Positions 34,224 to 39,284 of a stretch of DNA of 64,000 bases are shown one piece after another; positions within the stretch are counted from its first letter, which is position 1; the number at the start of each line of letters is the position of its first letter. This DNA is from Kangiella taiwanensis (GTDB lineage: Bacteria > Pseudomonadota > Gammaproteobacteria > Enterobacterales > Kangiellaceae): contig NZ_JAHCLT010000002.1 of assembly GCF_020005165.1 (NCBI RefSeq), forward strand, positions 186,001 through 250,000, given 5' to 3'. The position numbers and the translations under genes were made by a program. The notes beneath the pieces are model-generated. The model worked only from the letters and a program-made list of their open reading frames with translations. It was not told the origin of the DNA and searched no databases.

Positions 34224-34299
34224 TCCCCCTTAGTTCAGTCGGTAGAACGGTGGACTGTTAATCCATATGTCGCTGGTTCGAATCCAGCAGGGGGAGCCA
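34224..34299 (+). tRNA. tRNA-Asn (anticodon GTT)
   Basis: A 76-base cloverleaf: acceptor arms TCCCCCT and AGGGGGA, discriminator G, encoded CCA at 34297-34299, T-loop GGTTCGAATCC, and anticodon GTT at 34257-34259 in the loop CTGTTAA. A good promoter and an intrinsic terminator frame it, so it is transcribed alone. Confidence 0.98.
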
Positions 34300-35383: not shown

Positions 35384-35773
35384 ATGAGTGAAATAATTGA
35401 TCAACTTAAGCAACTTATGAATAATTTTGGTGAAACTGATTATTCGATGCAGCGTAAATCCAATATAAGTCAATCGACGATATACAGAATTTTAGAGCGA
35501 AAGACGACCGACCCCGGTGTTCACAAGATCGATACACTAGCAAGGGCTTTAGGCTTCAGACTGTCGCTCGTACCAATTAATGAAACCACAAGCCAAATAG
35601 ACTATTCATCTGAGGTAGACACTTTAAAGCGTATCATTACTCTGGTGGAGTCTCTAGCAAATGCACGTGGTATTGAACTGACGCCAGAAGAAAAAGCTGA
35701 AATGATTTTATCCAACTATCAAGCCAATAGTTCAAAAGAAGAGCTTGGGATGCGGATAGTTAACTTGAAGTAA
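35384..35773 (+). CDS. Small XRE/Cro-type HTH regulator
   Basis: A 129-residue protein with an N-terminal Cro/C1-like helix-turn-helix at about residues 8-65: DYSMQRKSNISQSTIYRILE, then DPGVHKIDTLARALGFRL. The C-terminal half (about 75-125) is charged and helical, probably for dimerisation. No toxin-like partner is adjacent. The ATG at 35384 has GGGAT ten bases upstream; an in-frame TTG at 35369 is less likely. A palindrome 35 bases upstream is a probable operator, and a bidirectional terminator follows at 35797-35826. Confidence 0.82.
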   Translation: MSEIIDQLKQLMNNFGETDYSMQRKSNISQSTIYRILERKTTDPGVHKIDTLARALGFRLSLVPINETTSQIDYSSEVDTLKRIITLVESLANARGIELTPEEKAEMILSNYQANSSKEELGMRIVNLK

Positions 35774-35833: not shown

Positions 35834-36229
35834 CTAAATTCTTGTTAGCGACGTAATATCACTACTCCCTGAGCTTTTAGCGCGTACAGGCCTCAAAAAG
35901 CCTTTAGACTGTATAATCTTTCTATTCTTACGCTCGAACTCTTCTAGTTTCTGATTCCAAACTAGAATTTCTCGCAGTTTATCTTTCTCGCTTAAATTAC
36001 TTGTCTCAATCTGTGAGTACTCTTGCAACAAACGCAAAGCCATAATGTCCGCTCTACGAAAAGCAGACAGGTCCACTATATTCCCCTCTTCTTCAAAAAG
36101 GGAACTACTAGAAAACTCTGAACTAGAGAGTTCTTCGCTTTTGTTTCGATAAGCCTTTAGAATTAGCCAAAACAGCGCTGCTGCGAACGCTGCTAACACT
36201 AAACCGTAGGCCAAAAATAGTGATGCCAT
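35834..36229 (-). CDS. Unknown single-span protein, module copy A, third gene
   Basis: A 131-residue protein not recognised as a known family. An N-terminal membrane span (about 4-24, LFLAYGLVLAAFAAALFWLI) is followed by KAYRNK, a Ser/Glu-rich linker, and a charged helical cytoplasmic part that is identical to copy B (37395-37787) over LLQEYSQIETSNLSEKD through FERKNRKIIQS. The first 107 bases overlap, in another frame, the 3' end of the preceding membrane-protein gene. Aligned by eye with copy B, the region after the overlap differs at 34 of 151 bases yet keeps the amino acids, so the protein is under purifying selection. Confidence 0.8.
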   Translation of the reverse strand: MASLFLAYGLVLAAFAAALFWLILKAYRNKSEELSSSEFSSSSLFEEEGNIVDLSAFRRADIMALRLLQEYSQIETSNLSEKDKLREILVWNQKLEEFERKNRKIIQSKGFLRPVRAKSSGSSDITSLTRI

Positions 36230-36716
36230 TGAGCTGCTTACCTATAAGAAAGACAAGTTGTTTTAAAATCGGTATTAAAAGAACCATCACAATACAAAAG
36301 TTTACCGCCTGTAAGGCATAGGCTTGAGTATTGCCGACGAGATTGAATTCAGTAAAATGCCGCTCAACATAACGGCCTAAACTGAAAGAAATTGCTACGA
36401 GCGTTAAAACACAAATGGCAAATTCTTCTTTTAATACTCTCCCTGAAATCACGGCCCTAGTTGCCACATATAACAAAATTAAAATATCTGTAATCATCCA
36501 GGTGATGTACCAGATATAGATAGCAATTTCATGAGACCTTAATGCTGGACTGATCGCCCAGTTAACAAACTGAACGATCACTAAAAACATGCAAAAGCTC
36601 ACTAAGCGCTTCTGCTTAGTGAGCATTAAGTGCATAAATAAACACCCCACCAAAGATAAAGTAAAAATATCCTTCAGTGGCTGCCAAAGATTTAGGTCTA
36701 AGACAAAGTTAAACAA
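36123..36716 (-). CDS. Unknown polytopic membrane protein, module copy A, second gene
   Basis: A 197-residue protein with about five hydrophobic segments: around 18-32, 38-57, 66-87, 98-115 and 130-155. A basic C-terminal tail reads GLRFSVSSVRSSAVLAN and ends SKQKRRTL. Conserved with copy B: LVGCLF, KRLVSFC, YIWYITWMITDILILLYVA, GR-(Y/F)-VERHFTEF, LNGITIFGLRFSVSS. I do not recognise the family. The start appears to be TTG at 36716, directly after an in-frame stop, with GAGGA and AGG upstream; copy B also begins at an equivalent TTG. The last 107 bases overlap the downstream gene. Confidence 0.72.
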   Translation of the reverse strand: MFNFVLDLNLWQPLKDIFTLSLVGCLFMHLMLTKQKRLVSFCMFLVIVQFVNWAISPALRSHEIAIYIWYITWMITDILILLYVATRAVISGRVLKEEFAICVLTLVAISFSLGRYVERHFTEFNLVGNTQAYALQAVNFCIVMVLLIPILKQLVFLIGKQLNGITIFGLRFSVSSVRSSAVLANSKGLSKQKRRTL

Positions 36717-36841
36717 TTACCTGTGTTCCTCTACTCTACGTAGGTTTAGTCTTCAACAAATCCTAACAAACACAAAGTTTTAAACAAAAGAGGAAACAGC
36801 AATTTGTACAATATCTAACTGTTTAACTGGTCTCTACATCG

Positions 36842-37000
36842 TTAGTCACGCTTAGTTTTGTCAGGATCCTCTTCCGGCTCCCCTCCACCGTTACCAGTGT
36901 AGACTTCAAGCGCAACTTCTTGCTCAAAAAGTATAGGTTGTTGAATTTCTTGAGGTTGTACCATAGATAAATAACAGATCATTGCGATAGATTCAAACAT
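36842..37000 (-). CDS. 52-residue peptide, module copy A, first gene
   Basis: A short frame with a strong ribosome site (GGAGG, nine bases before ATG). The peptide begins MFESIAMICYLSMVQPQ, continues through VALEVYTGNGGGEPEEDP and ends TKRD. Copy B encodes a 52-residue partner with the same first 22 residues and the same Gly-rich, acidic tail. The first 66 bases of the two copies differ at one base. A weakly hydrophobic N-terminus with one Cys and an acidic C-terminus is all that can be seen. A 125-base spacer separates it from the next gene in this copy. Function unknown; a secreted or leader peptide is possible. Confidence 0.75.
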   Translation of the reverse strand: MFESIAMICYLSMVQPQEIQQPILFEQEVALEVYTGNGGGEPEEDPDKTKRD

Positions 37001-37090
37001 AATTAAATGCCTCCAACAGTAGTTACATCAATAAAAAGTGATTTGAAATAAAATAATTCATGGATCACGAAAGGCGTTATCCAGATTTGG

Positions 37091-37216
37091 TTACCATAAC
37101 TTATTGGTTTGTAACACTATTATTATGATAAAGAACAAGTGTTATGGGTTTTGCTGATTAAATATTAATCAATATAATTAAATAAAAGCGTGAAGTAAAT
37201 TTTACATTTGATAAAT
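37091..37216. repeat. Conserved upstream block, copy A
   Basis: Aligns with 38531-38656 at a constant offset of 1440. Identical sub-blocks are TTACCATAACTTATTG, GTTATGGGTT, AATATTAATCAATATA, and a 28-base stretch at 37189-37216 containing GTAAATTTTAC. CCATAAC (37094-37100) and GTTATGG (37141-37147) are inverted with respect to each other, 40 bases apart. The block lies 91-216 bases before the peptide gene and probably carries promoter and operator sites. Confidence 0.75.
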
Positions 37217-37341
37217 GTTACTTATTATTATATTTCGATTTTGTATTTAGCTAACCCATTGAAATAAATAGTCATTTATGCATTACCCGCAATGCGCAAA
37301 CCCCTTAAAAGTATTATCTTTAATAAGTTTTTTTAAGAAAC

Positions 37342-37372
37342 AAAAAAAAGCGCCTTTAGTAAGCGCCTTTTC
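37342..37372 (-). terminator. Probable terminator of module copy B
   Basis: On the minus strand AAG(G)CGC and GCGCTT form a six-base-pair stem with a bulged G, followed by T8 (37349-37342). It lies 22 bases after the copy-B stop. Confidence 0.6.
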
Positions 37373-37394
37373 ATTGCCAGTGTGTGGGGGGGTG

Positions 37395-37787
37395 CTAAAT
37401 GCGTGTCAAGGGGGAAACGCTAGAGGGGCTTACTTTGCCTTGCACGGGGCGTAGGAAGCCTCTGGACTGTATAATTTTTCTGTTTTTGCGCTCGAACTCC
37501 TCCAGTTTTTGGTTCCAGACAAGTATTTCTCTGAGTTTATCCTTTTCTGAAAGGTTGCTGGTTTCAATTTGTGAGTACTCTTGGAGTAGACGCAAAGCGG
37601 TTATATCTGCTCTACGATATGCAGACAGATCAACAATGTTCTCTTCACCACTGAAGAGTGACTCGCCTGAAAATCCGCTATCTAGGGATTCGGCGTTTTT
37701 GTTTCGATAAGCCTTTAGAATCAGCCAGAACAACGCTACTGCGAACGCTGCTAACACTAAACCGTAGGCCAAAAATAGTAATGCCAT
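37395..37787 (-). CDS. Unknown single-span protein, module copy B, third gene
   Basis: A 130-residue paralogue of 35834-36229. Membrane span at about 4-24, then KAYRNK, an acidic/Ser-Gly linker that differs from copy A (ESLDSGFSGESLFSGEEN), the shared IVDLSA-(Y/F)-RRADI segment and the helical part. ATG 37787 is supported by position and by copy A. Its first 110 bases overlap the 3' end of the preceding membrane-protein gene in another frame, as in copy A. Confidence 0.8.
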   Translation of the reverse strand: MALLFLAYGLVLAAFAVALFWLILKAYRNKNAESLDSGFSGESLFSGEENIVDLSAYRRADITALRLLQEYSQIETSNLSEKDKLREILVWNQKLEEFERKNRKIIQSRGFLRPVQGKVSPSSVSPLTRI

Positions 37788-38277
37788 TTAGGTGTTTCCC
37801 TGCTAATAATACTAGTTGTTTAATCACTGGGGCAGTAAGAACAATAATAATACAGATGTTTACCGCCGGTAACGCATACGCTTGCAAACCTTTAATCAGG
37901 CTAAACTCTGTAAAGTGTCTCTCTACAAAGCGACCTATATAAAATGCAATGGCTATCGTTGTGAATATACTCACCGCCATTTCTTCTTTTGTAATTTTGT
38001 TGGTTACTACAGCCTGAAATGCGACATACAGTAAAATCAATATGTCTGTAATCATCCAAGTAATATACCAAATGTACTTACCCTCTCCATGCTCCATCAG
38101 CCACGGGGACAAATTCCAATTGAGGAATTGAACCACTACCAAGAATGCACAAAAGCTCACCAAGCGTTTCCGCTTGGTGAAGAGTAAATGCAAAAACAAG
38201 CATCCAACCAAACATAAAGTAAAAGTGTTTGTAATGAAGCCAGTTAAGTTTAATTCATTTACGAAGTTTGTGATCAA
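37678..38277 (-). CDS. Unknown polytopic membrane protein, module copy B, second gene
   Basis: A 199-residue paralogue of 36123-36716 with the same five-segment layout and the same basic tail (SSVRSSVVLADSKGLSKQKRR). The start is TTG at 38277 with AAGGA about eight bases upstream, inside the end of the peptide gene. In this copy the peptide and this gene are in the same frame, separated only by one TGA and one sense codon. No catalytic motif is evident: I looked for the His/Cys pair of AgrB-type peptidases and the Ser/His pair of rhomboids and found neither. Confidence 0.75.
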   Translation of the reverse strand: MITNFVNELNLTGFITNTFTLCLVGCLFLHLLFTKRKRLVSFCAFLVVVQFLNWNLSPWLMEHGEGKYIWYITWMITDILILLYVAFQAVVTNKITKEEMAVSIFTTIAIAFYIGRFVERHFTEFSLIKGLQAYALPAVNICIIIVLTAPVIKQLVLLAGKHLNGITIFGLRFSVSSVRSSVVLADSKGLSKQKRRIPR

Positions 38278-38280
38278 ATA

Positions 38281-38439
38281 TCAATCCTTCTTACTTGTCG
38301 TAGGATCTTCTTCTGGCTCTCCACCAGAGCCTCCTGTGTATACTTCAAGCGCAACTTCCTTCGGTTCAAACAAAGGTTGTTGAATTTCTTGAGGTTGTAC
38401 CATAGATAAATAGCAGATCATTGCGATAGATTCAAACAT
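38281..38439 (-). CDS. 52-residue peptide, module copy B, first gene
   Basis: Partner of 36842-37000. It begins MFESIAMICYLSMVQPQ, carries VALEVYTGGSGGEPEEDP near the end and closes TTSKKD. AGAGG lies nine bases upstream of the ATG. The C-terminal third is more variable between copies than the N-terminal part, but length (52) and the charge pattern are kept. It ends three bases before the TTG start of the membrane-protein gene, in the same frame. Confidence 0.75.
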   Translation of the reverse strand: MFESIAMICYLSMVQPQEIQQPLFEPKEVALEVYTGGSGGEPEEDPTTSKKD

Positions 38440-38530
38440 AATTAAGTACCTCTAACAGTAGTTATTTAGGAAAAAATACGATATAAAACAAAATTAATAA
38501 TGGATAGCAAAATGCGCATCCGCCTAGTCG

Positions 38531-38656
38531 TTACCATAACTTATTGCTTTTTAACGATATTATTATTTTAAAGAACGGGCGTTATGGGTTTCTTTGTATA
38601 AATATTAATCAATATAGTTTAATAAAAACGTGAAGTAAATTTTACATTTGATAAAT
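38531..38656. repeat. Conserved upstream block, copy B, shared with the rhombosortase gene
   Basis: Second copy of the block at 37091-37216, with the same inverted CCATAAC/GTTATGG pair. It lies between the divergent peptide gene (minus) and rhombosortase gene (plus, start 38664), ending eight bases before the latter, so it should hold the control sites of both. Confidence 0.75.
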
Positions 38657-38663
38657 AATAGTT

Positions 38664-39284
38664 ATGAGAAATTTTTTTTATAGATACGCTATCCCTTTGA
38701 TTTTAAGTCATATTTGCATTATTCTCATATTTGCATTACCCCAGTTAAATTCATGGATGGAGTACAATCGCTCGGCAGTAAACTCAGGTGAATTTTGGCG
38801 CTTGGTGACACCCAACTTTGTTCATTTAGGAGTCCGTCATACTCTTCTCAATTTAGCCGGGTTGTGGTTTACCATGGCGCTATTTATAAACTTGCTCAAG
38901 AATACTGATTGGTTAATTTGGTTCACTCTTCTTTTTGTTGGGAATATCCTTGGGCTGCATTTGTGGGTTCCCTCATTAGAGCAATATGTTGGAATGTCAG
39001 GAGCCCTTTATGGCTTAATCGCTGGCGCAGCTGTAGCTGAGTTGCGTCTAGGAATAAAACTGAGCGGCCTTTTACTGATCATAGTTGGCTTGAAGATTTT
39101 CATTCCTCAATTTATTGGTGAGGAAAGTAGCTACAACGAGTGGTTGGGTGGCAATGTTATTGAGGAAGCCCATATCATAGGCTTTATTCAAGGTTTAATA
39201 TTGGGTTTAGTTTGGCCAAAGAGTCGCCTTAACAAACCGAACTCAATAAAGGCCAAACTAAACAATGATAATAAACCCGCCTAA
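38664..39284 (+). CDS. rrtA: Rhombosortase (GlyGly-CTERM-processing rhomboid protease)
   Basis: A 206-residue polytopic inner-membrane serine protease of the rhomboid fold. Family features in order: GEFWRLVTPNFVHLGVRHTLLNLAGL (about 42-67), the catalytic Ser motif VGMSGALYGL (about 109-118), and the catalytic His in EEAHIIGFIQGL (about 167-178). The short length, with six spans and a Lys/Asn-rich tail, fits rhombosortases, which cleave proteins that carry a C-terminal GlyGly-CTERM tag. No tagged substrate is visible in this window. It is divergent from module copy B and overlaps comEA convergently by four bases. The subfamily call rests on motif spacing; a general rhomboid is the alternative. 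Confidence 0.78.
   Translation: MRNFFYRYAIPLILSHICIILIFALPQLNSWMEYNRSAVNSGEFWRLVTPNFVHLGVRHTLLNLAGLWFTMALFINLLKNTDWLIWFTLLFVGNILGLHLWVPSLEQYVGMSGALYGLIAGAAVAELRLGIKLSGLLLIIVGLKIFIPQFIGEESSYNEWLGGNVIEEAHIIGFIQGLILGLVWPKSRLNKPNSIKAKLNNDNKPA

Follow-up and report, generated by a model that had tools for sequence, protein, structure and literature searches.

Two tandem copies of a three-gene module in Kangiella

We analysed a stretch of 64,000 nucleotides (nt) of the 2.56-Mb genome of Kangiella taiwanensis (contig NZ_JAHCLT010000002.1, positions 186,001 to 250,000; hereafter the window), in which two tandem gene triplets lie on the minus strand at 35834-37000 and 37395-38439. Each triplet codes, in this order, for a short precursor peptide, a five-helix membrane protein (Mem) and a single-span protein (Ssp) (Table 1). 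A first-pass annotation made from the letters alone had described both copies, with their positions, gene order, protein lengths (52/52, 197/199 and 131/130 residues), TTG starts for Mem and a shared upstream block, and all of these features were confirmed. L-numbers and G-numbers designate the loci and genomes used for comparison.

The peptide, Mem and Ssp of copy A share 79%, 66% and 82% amino-acid identity with their counterparts in copy B. The ratio of nonsynonymous to synonymous change (dN/dS) between copies is 0.39 for the peptide and 0.10 for Mem, the synonymous sites of Ssp being saturated. Given these identities and ratios, both triplets are old, constrained genes under purifying selection and not chance open reading frames (ORFs). 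The blocks repeated between the two copies are 71-86% identical in register (85% for the upstream block).

The same type of module (A-type) is present in 13 Kangiella genomes as one to three tandem copies between a helix-turn-helix (HTH) gene and a rhombosortase gene. The order of the triplet is therefore kept outside the window pair, both in these genomes and in relatives elsewhere in the order. A search of 40 genomes of the family with Mem of copy B found relatives in 18, all of them Kangiella (18/20), and profile A1 added G029, bringing Mem to 19 of the 20 Kangiella genomes; the twentieth genome is 55% complete. Six other Kangiella genomes code for a shorter Mem and an Ssp, with a repeat peptide visible in five, near genes that resemble by eye rsmI, the RNase P RNA gene and mraZ (in G032 the contig stops just upstream). 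Beyond Kangiella, the Mem of L081 matched 39 of the 246 genomes of family f7, and profile A5 matched 29/295 genomes of the order (10/99 genera), 17 of which are Kangiella and one of which has nine matches. Two class-wide samples returned only the source genome (1/350), plus in one of them (2/369) a 33-residue match containing a stop, which is at chance level. A plasmid relative of L101 (98.5% identity over 1187 nt) lies within blaPER-1 regions, and an excerpt of PMC7782503 gives Pararheinheimera as the origin of PER enzymes; family f7 is for this reason probably Alteromonadaceae. No visible core peptide precedes the Mem relatives of family f20 (L082, L232, L233 and L234).

In all 20 A-type copies examined, the 3′ end of mem lies out of frame inside ssp over 107 or 110 nt; this count omits two of the 22 A-type copies, both in L036, whose frames are split or short. 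Across 10 copy pairs, the difference rate was 0.24 in the overlap vs 0.44 directly before it, and the third positions of the two frames differed at 0.23 and 0.32 vs 0.63. Both reading frames of the overlap thus look constrained, to which gene conversion may contribute. Only the Kangiella A-type has this long overlap (window positions 36123-36229 and 37678-37787); elsewhere, Mem terminates earlier. The three tandem copies of G019 (L036, 7537-9891) include a second copy with Ssp split across two frames and a third with a short Mem ORF and no Ssp found; the upstream blocks are identical as aligned. Upstream of the peptide, the stretch of about 60 bp that all aligned A-type copies share is AT-rich and lies about 150-220 nt 5′ of the peptide start. 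The only known RNA element above threshold between 33500 and 40500 was a tRNA at 34224-34296.

Table 1. Features of the two triplets and of their flanks, in window coordinates.
Feature	Position	Strand	Remarks
Copy A precursor peptide, 52 aa	36842..37000	-	homologues at 12 other Kangiella loci
Copy A core TGNGGGEPEEDP, peptide residues 35-46	36863..36898	-	E preceding P covaries with Mem
Copy A Mem, 197 aa, TTG start	36123..36716	-	
Copy A Ssp, 131 aa, one span	35834..36229	-	out-of-frame overlap with Mem, 107 nt
Copy B precursor peptide, 52 aa	38281..38439	-	
Copy B core TGGSGGEPEEDP, peptide residues 35-46	38302..38337	-	same position as the copy A core
Copy B Mem, 199 aa, TTG start	37678..38277	-	AlphaFold2 pLDDT 81.4, pTM 0.71
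Mem B R116-F-V-E119-R120, probable peptide contact, outer end of helix 4	37918..37932	-	invariant columns and covariation
Copy B Ssp, 130 aa	37395..37787	-	out-of-frame overlap with Mem, 110 nt
Upstream block, copy A	37090..37225	-	37160-37219 is the stretch of about 60 bp common to 22/22 aligned A-type copies
Upstream block, copy B	38530..38665	-	pairs with the copy A block
HTH (Cro/C1-type) gene, probably outside the module	35384..35773	+	convergent with Ssp A
Rhombosortase gene, flanking, outside the module	38664..39284	+	TIGR03902, E 1.8e-40

Precursor peptides and their repeated cores

Judged by comparison of its relatives, the peptide is a precursor that often holds several cores: a G-x-G-x-x-E-P(-P) core, present once or up to about 12 times, follows leaders of varied type. 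In two relatives, the peptide tail is repeated four and eight times. ORFs preceding distant Mem/Ssp pairs have a signal-peptide-like start followed by tandem GGGVEP repeats (12 units in L045, eight in L047, six in L048, five each in L050 and L083), and the f7 ORFs located 5′ of mem bear GNGGGKEPP, three GNGAGIEPPK, five GSGSGNEPP and similar units. The motif G.G.(1-3)P, scored within the last 70 residues of the upstream ORF, was found for 53 of the 62 Mems outside the first Kangiella locus set and for 16 of the 28 inside it, compared to 1/225 control ORFs. With a wider upstream limit, eight of these 28 still lacked the motif; five of them have the variant GxxGGEP, and no peptide is visible for the other three (L044, at a contig end, and two of L046). 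Changes between the repeated cores were exclusively silent in L081, L033 and L103 (silent:other 21:0, 28:0 and 30:0), and the pattern was less clear in L045 (47:27), L092 (14:10) and L035 (14:21); because regular expressions were used to choose the units, identical cores are favoured. The frequent replacement of the core glutamate by R, K or I led us to drop the idea of a lasso peptide, although no profile search for cyclase genes was made.

A rough classification of the leaders at the 62 loci gave 26 FlgM-like, 22 Sec, two double-glycine and seven other leaders, with none found at five loci; L106 and L127 were binned as FlgM-like yet look Sec-type. The two double-glycine leaders in this count, which end in Gly-Gly, were recognised by pattern. 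Leaders of this type occur in L091 and L132, and more were seen by eye in G266 (L225, L229 and L230); the window peptides have none, and their leader (MFESIAMICYLSM) fits none of the classes. That one core stands behind several export-type leaders suggests that the product is released from the cytoplasm. Many precursors (L081, L085-L104) begin with a FlgM-like stretch of the VTLSAEAKAKL type, and one thought is that these might be exported by the flagellar apparatus. In the NCBIfam scan, matches to the FlgM model TIGR03824 were weak (7/29 peptides, best E 0.0026), and the one match listed, member 1, scored 14.9 against a cut-off of 40.75. G266 (L132, L225-L231), with its nine Mem matches, has some double-glycine-leader peptides with Cys/Trp-rich tails and some Mems without a visible peptide.

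Membrane proteins and charge covariation with the core

No Pfam or NCBIfam model matched more than one of 44 Mems, no Pfam model matched more than one of 19 Ssps, and none of the 44 Mems matched in PADLOC. The initial impression that the three proteins belong to no known family therefore holds for Pfam and NCBIfam. By these scans the parts are without a known family, save one PHROG for Mem: phrog_31674, a phage family without assigned function, was matched by 28 of 44 Mem-family members (best E 2.9e-12, counted over the 44 members together), and it says nothing about the peptide or Ssp. A single Mem of 44 matched the AgrC model at E 0.027, which is chance level. A fold search of the PDB with Mem gave nothing at E<=0.001 (best E 0.83 and 0.68); the fold matches listed at best E 0.68 were mostly G-protein-coupled receptors with TM scores below 0.4 and were not used as evidence.

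AlphaFold2 modelled the L081 Mem, using 44 sequences, as five helices (pLDDT 95.6, pTM 0.88). The loop charges of Mem fit an N-out/C-in orientation, so that by known rules the helix 4 end that bears R116 and E119-R120 (copy B numbering), three invariant columns of the A1 alignment, should face the periplasm. Since basic residues follow the N-terminal span of Ssp, its tail should be cytoplasmic. An Ssp-like ORF lies 3′ of 50 of the 62 non-A-type Mems (three of the 50 are doubtful).

We compared the residue preceding the core proline with the Mem position corresponding to R121 of L081 (R116 of copy B) in 87 distinct Mems having a core within 200 nt, other Mems being dropped. For E/D cores (n = 57), the Mem residue was R/K in 56 cases and Q in one; for R/K cores (n = 13), it was D/E in nine, G in three and R in one; for neutral cores (n = 17), it was neutral in 12, R in three and E in two. 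Among the 65-68 testable Mem columns, the R116 column was the most anticorrelated with the core at every redundancy cut (r = -0.86, -0.81, -0.79 and -0.74 at n = 87, 57, 47 and 39, respectively), compared to -0.49 to -0.58 for the runner-up, R125 in L081 numbering. In a tree of 83 Mems, constructed with the two columns left out, both traits changed on nine branches, the peptide alone on five and Mem alone on six (P = 4e-8 for the branch overlap, assuming 164 equal branches). Given this charge-swap covariation, with no other Mem column scoring as high, Mem very probably contacts the peptide.

Loci fetched later provided ten further pairs, with a core for five of the 13 Mems of one set and for all five new Mems of another. 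Eight pairs carried opposite charges, either E with R (L225, L283, L327 and L334) or R with D/E (L229, L230, L235 and L268), two were E with Q, and none had like charges; for L225, L226, L230 and L320 the core was identified by eye, and L268 had been found by scanning blindly for R cores. In a blind motif test, we searched IMG/VR for DNA patterns of the core and then checked for a downstream Mem. The GNGGGxEPP pattern hit 12 contigs, four of which had a Mem directly 3′ (one duplicating a known locus); a looser E pattern gave 8/80 contigs with a Mem, the 12 earlier ones included, and an R pattern 1/35, or 9/115 together.

Candidate functions of the module

Besides chromosomes, the Mem family occurs in prophages and on plasmids. 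The module of L110 sits in an IMG/VR provirus (L184), and at six loci (L184, L188, L191, L193, L133 and L139) ssp runs towards a CI-like HTH gene on the other strand, the ends of the two genes overlapping or being at most 20 nt apart; this HTH gene is in turn head-to-head with a Cro-like gene (both named by eye). Phage repressor profiles matched HTH genes of L149/L184, L152/L188 and L137. A convergent ORF stands beside 54 of the 73 Mems other than the Kangiella A-type. We scanned 38 proteins with Pfam, namely 35 of these 54 ORFs, one extra gene each from L131 and L137, and the window HTH protein; HTH_3 matched 15 and Phage_CI_repr 13, with 22 of the 38 preselected as HTH-like. A home-made HTH model matched 18/54 convergent ORFs vs 10/446 others, or 6/42 vs 9/445 once the 13 genes used to train it were left out; because of this overlap with its training genes, the Pfam counts are the cleaner evidence. 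Searches of INPHARED phages with three Mems, and of IMG/VR with the Mems of L049, L137 and L108, returned no match.

We consider it somewhat probable that the module is a peptide signal-receptor system. The first gene would yield a precursor that is exported, as suggested by leader types that are clear in relatives only, and probably cut to short G-x-G-x-x-E-P-P peptides. In the periplasm, a core would dock on Mem at the outer end of helix 4 (the covariation pointing to the contact, the loop charges to the side), where R116 and R120 of copy B would pair with the acidic residue preceding the core proline, and Mem, together with Ssp through its cytoplasmic tail, may relay the signal inward. For prophage modules beside a CI-like repressor, the lysis-lysogeny decision may be one output; in Kangiella, the module is chromosomal and locally duplicated. 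The first-pass annotation had proposed a peptide signal with its receptor or export parts. The former gained comparative support from the multi-core, leader-swapped peptides and the charge covariation, signalling itself still being inferred; the latter are not needed where the peptide bears a Sec-type leader.

Several observations weigh against a signal and its receptor. The charge rule has exceptions: three R/K cores face a G in Mem, L118, which has two differing cores, pairs a K core with R, five neutral cores face a charged residue, and the E cores of L226 and L320 face Q. Six of the nine co-change branches go to neutral for both traits and just one is a full charge reversal; on the remaining two, an E to R core accompanies R to G in Mem, and an E to neutral core accompanies R to E. 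Orphan Mems without a visible peptide amount to 5/62 and, in the later set, 8/13, the four of family f20 among them. The Kangiella A-type peptides are devoid of a classical signal peptide, and output genes such as a kinase or regulator were not recurrent among the 25 loci examined, where Mem itself was the only recurrent neighbour. Finally, an immunity function would predict identical covariation.

The peptide may be a secreted antagonist of the bacteriocin or microcin kind, with Mem and Ssp as immunity proteins and the covariation as toxin-immunity recognition. We regard this main rival as a possible but less probable explanation and prefer a signal and its receptor. Class II bacteriocins and microcins come with an immunity protein, and the gene order of the module, with membrane protein genes directly 3′ of the peptide gene, resembles this arrangement, as do the double-glycine-type leaders of the five loci named above. 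Several distinct peptide-Mem sets per genome (nine Mems at most, in G266), orphan Mems and mobile settings also fit an antagonist. Unlike membrane-active bacteriocins, though, the window peptides are acidic and Gly-rich. Across the family, the core is near-constant, whereas weapons usually diversify, and multi-copy cores occur. A C39-type exporter gene was not recurrent near the 25 loci, nor did the PADLOC and Pfam scans reveal an immunity family.

Covariation, which implies direct recognition, and multi-core precursors, which require processing, could also be accounted for by a maturation complex in which Mem and Ssp bind the precursor to cut, modify or export it, its target being elsewhere. 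Such a complex is improbable, as Mem has no conserved nucleophile (only W74 and Y137 of L081 are near-invariant across 44 Mems) and the variability of the contact residue (R, D, E, Q or G) implies that it is not catalytic. That the short ORF, with PP near its end and a median of 16 nt 5′ of mem, codes for an arrest peptide whose leader and C-terminal G-x-G-x-x-P-P stall the ribosome to control translation of mem is very improbable, since neither tandem functional-looking cores nor covariation with the outer side of Mem make sense for stalling.

The first-pass annotation had also linked the module to the adjacent rhomboid-type protease gene. This is a rhombosortase gene, whose product might cut the Gly-Gly of the peptide. 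We rejected this partnership, which we deem the least probable of all explanations. The two genes do adjoin in all 13 A-type genomes; the HTH and rhombosortase genes, however, are both present in 18/18 near-complete Kangiella genomes, whether these have the module or not, and stand directly next to each other in six genomes without it at that site, so that the rhombosortase gene simply flanks the module. At the other modules (25 loci), rhombosortase genes do not recur. GlyGly-CTERM proteins share a Gly-rich motif with the peptide, and in them, according to an excerpt of PMC6219818, the glycines are followed by a hydrophobic span and a basic end; the window peptides terminate in GGGEPEEDPDKTKRD and GGEPEEDPTTSKKD, with neither. 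The flanking HTH protein (35384-35773) is 95-99% identical in the closest six Kangiella genomes, exceeding pyrF and rhombosortase.

By the comparisons made here, the module is not a member of the RRNPP/arbitrium, Agr, GlyGly-CTERM or FlgM systems, although by analogy it may work as a peptide-receptor system. As in arbitrium (AimP-AimR of SPbeta-type Bacillus phages) and other RRNPP systems, a peptide gene adjoins a probable receptor gene, and some copies lie in prophage repressor regions. In contrast to arbitrium, whose peptide is imported and whose receptor is cytosolic and DNA-binding, the Gram-negative module pairs its peptide with a five-helix membrane protein and a single-span protein; Mem matched no TPR family in the scans, and no cytosolic TPR-type receptor was found. 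Agr and ComX-type signals rely on a membrane sensor and a small peptide precursor, and here too a small precursor gene stands beside that of a polytopic membrane protein. Unlike those systems, the module lacks a histidine kinase, a response regulator and an AgrB-like protease; a kinase domain is absent from Mem, and there was no sequence or fold match. A bolder and doubtful extension is that the module serves communication between temperate phages and their hosts in Gram-negatives, arbitrium-like in purpose, with five-helix sensing at the periplasmic face and a single-span partner tuning the adjacent CI-like repressor, and that chromosomes, including those of Kangiella, keep domesticated copies for population sensing.

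Gram-negatives are thought to signal chiefly with small molecules, peptide signals with membrane receptors being best known in Gram-positives. None of the matches listed in a search of the open-licence PMC literature described the module. Three uncharacterised protein families come together as one module across chromosomes, prophages and plasmids, and the covariation names the residue pair where peptide and membrane protein probably meet. This turns a cluster of hypothetical genes into a testable ligand-receptor (or toxin-immunity) pair, for which the natural charge-swapped versions provide controls.

The triplet also travels as a hitch-hiker on plasmids of Vibrio, Pseudomonas, Acinetobacter and others (L158, 3661-4719; L159, L160, L156 and L157). 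blaPER-1 is annotated in three of these five plasmid stretches, and the peptide frame is truncated in the A. gerneri record.

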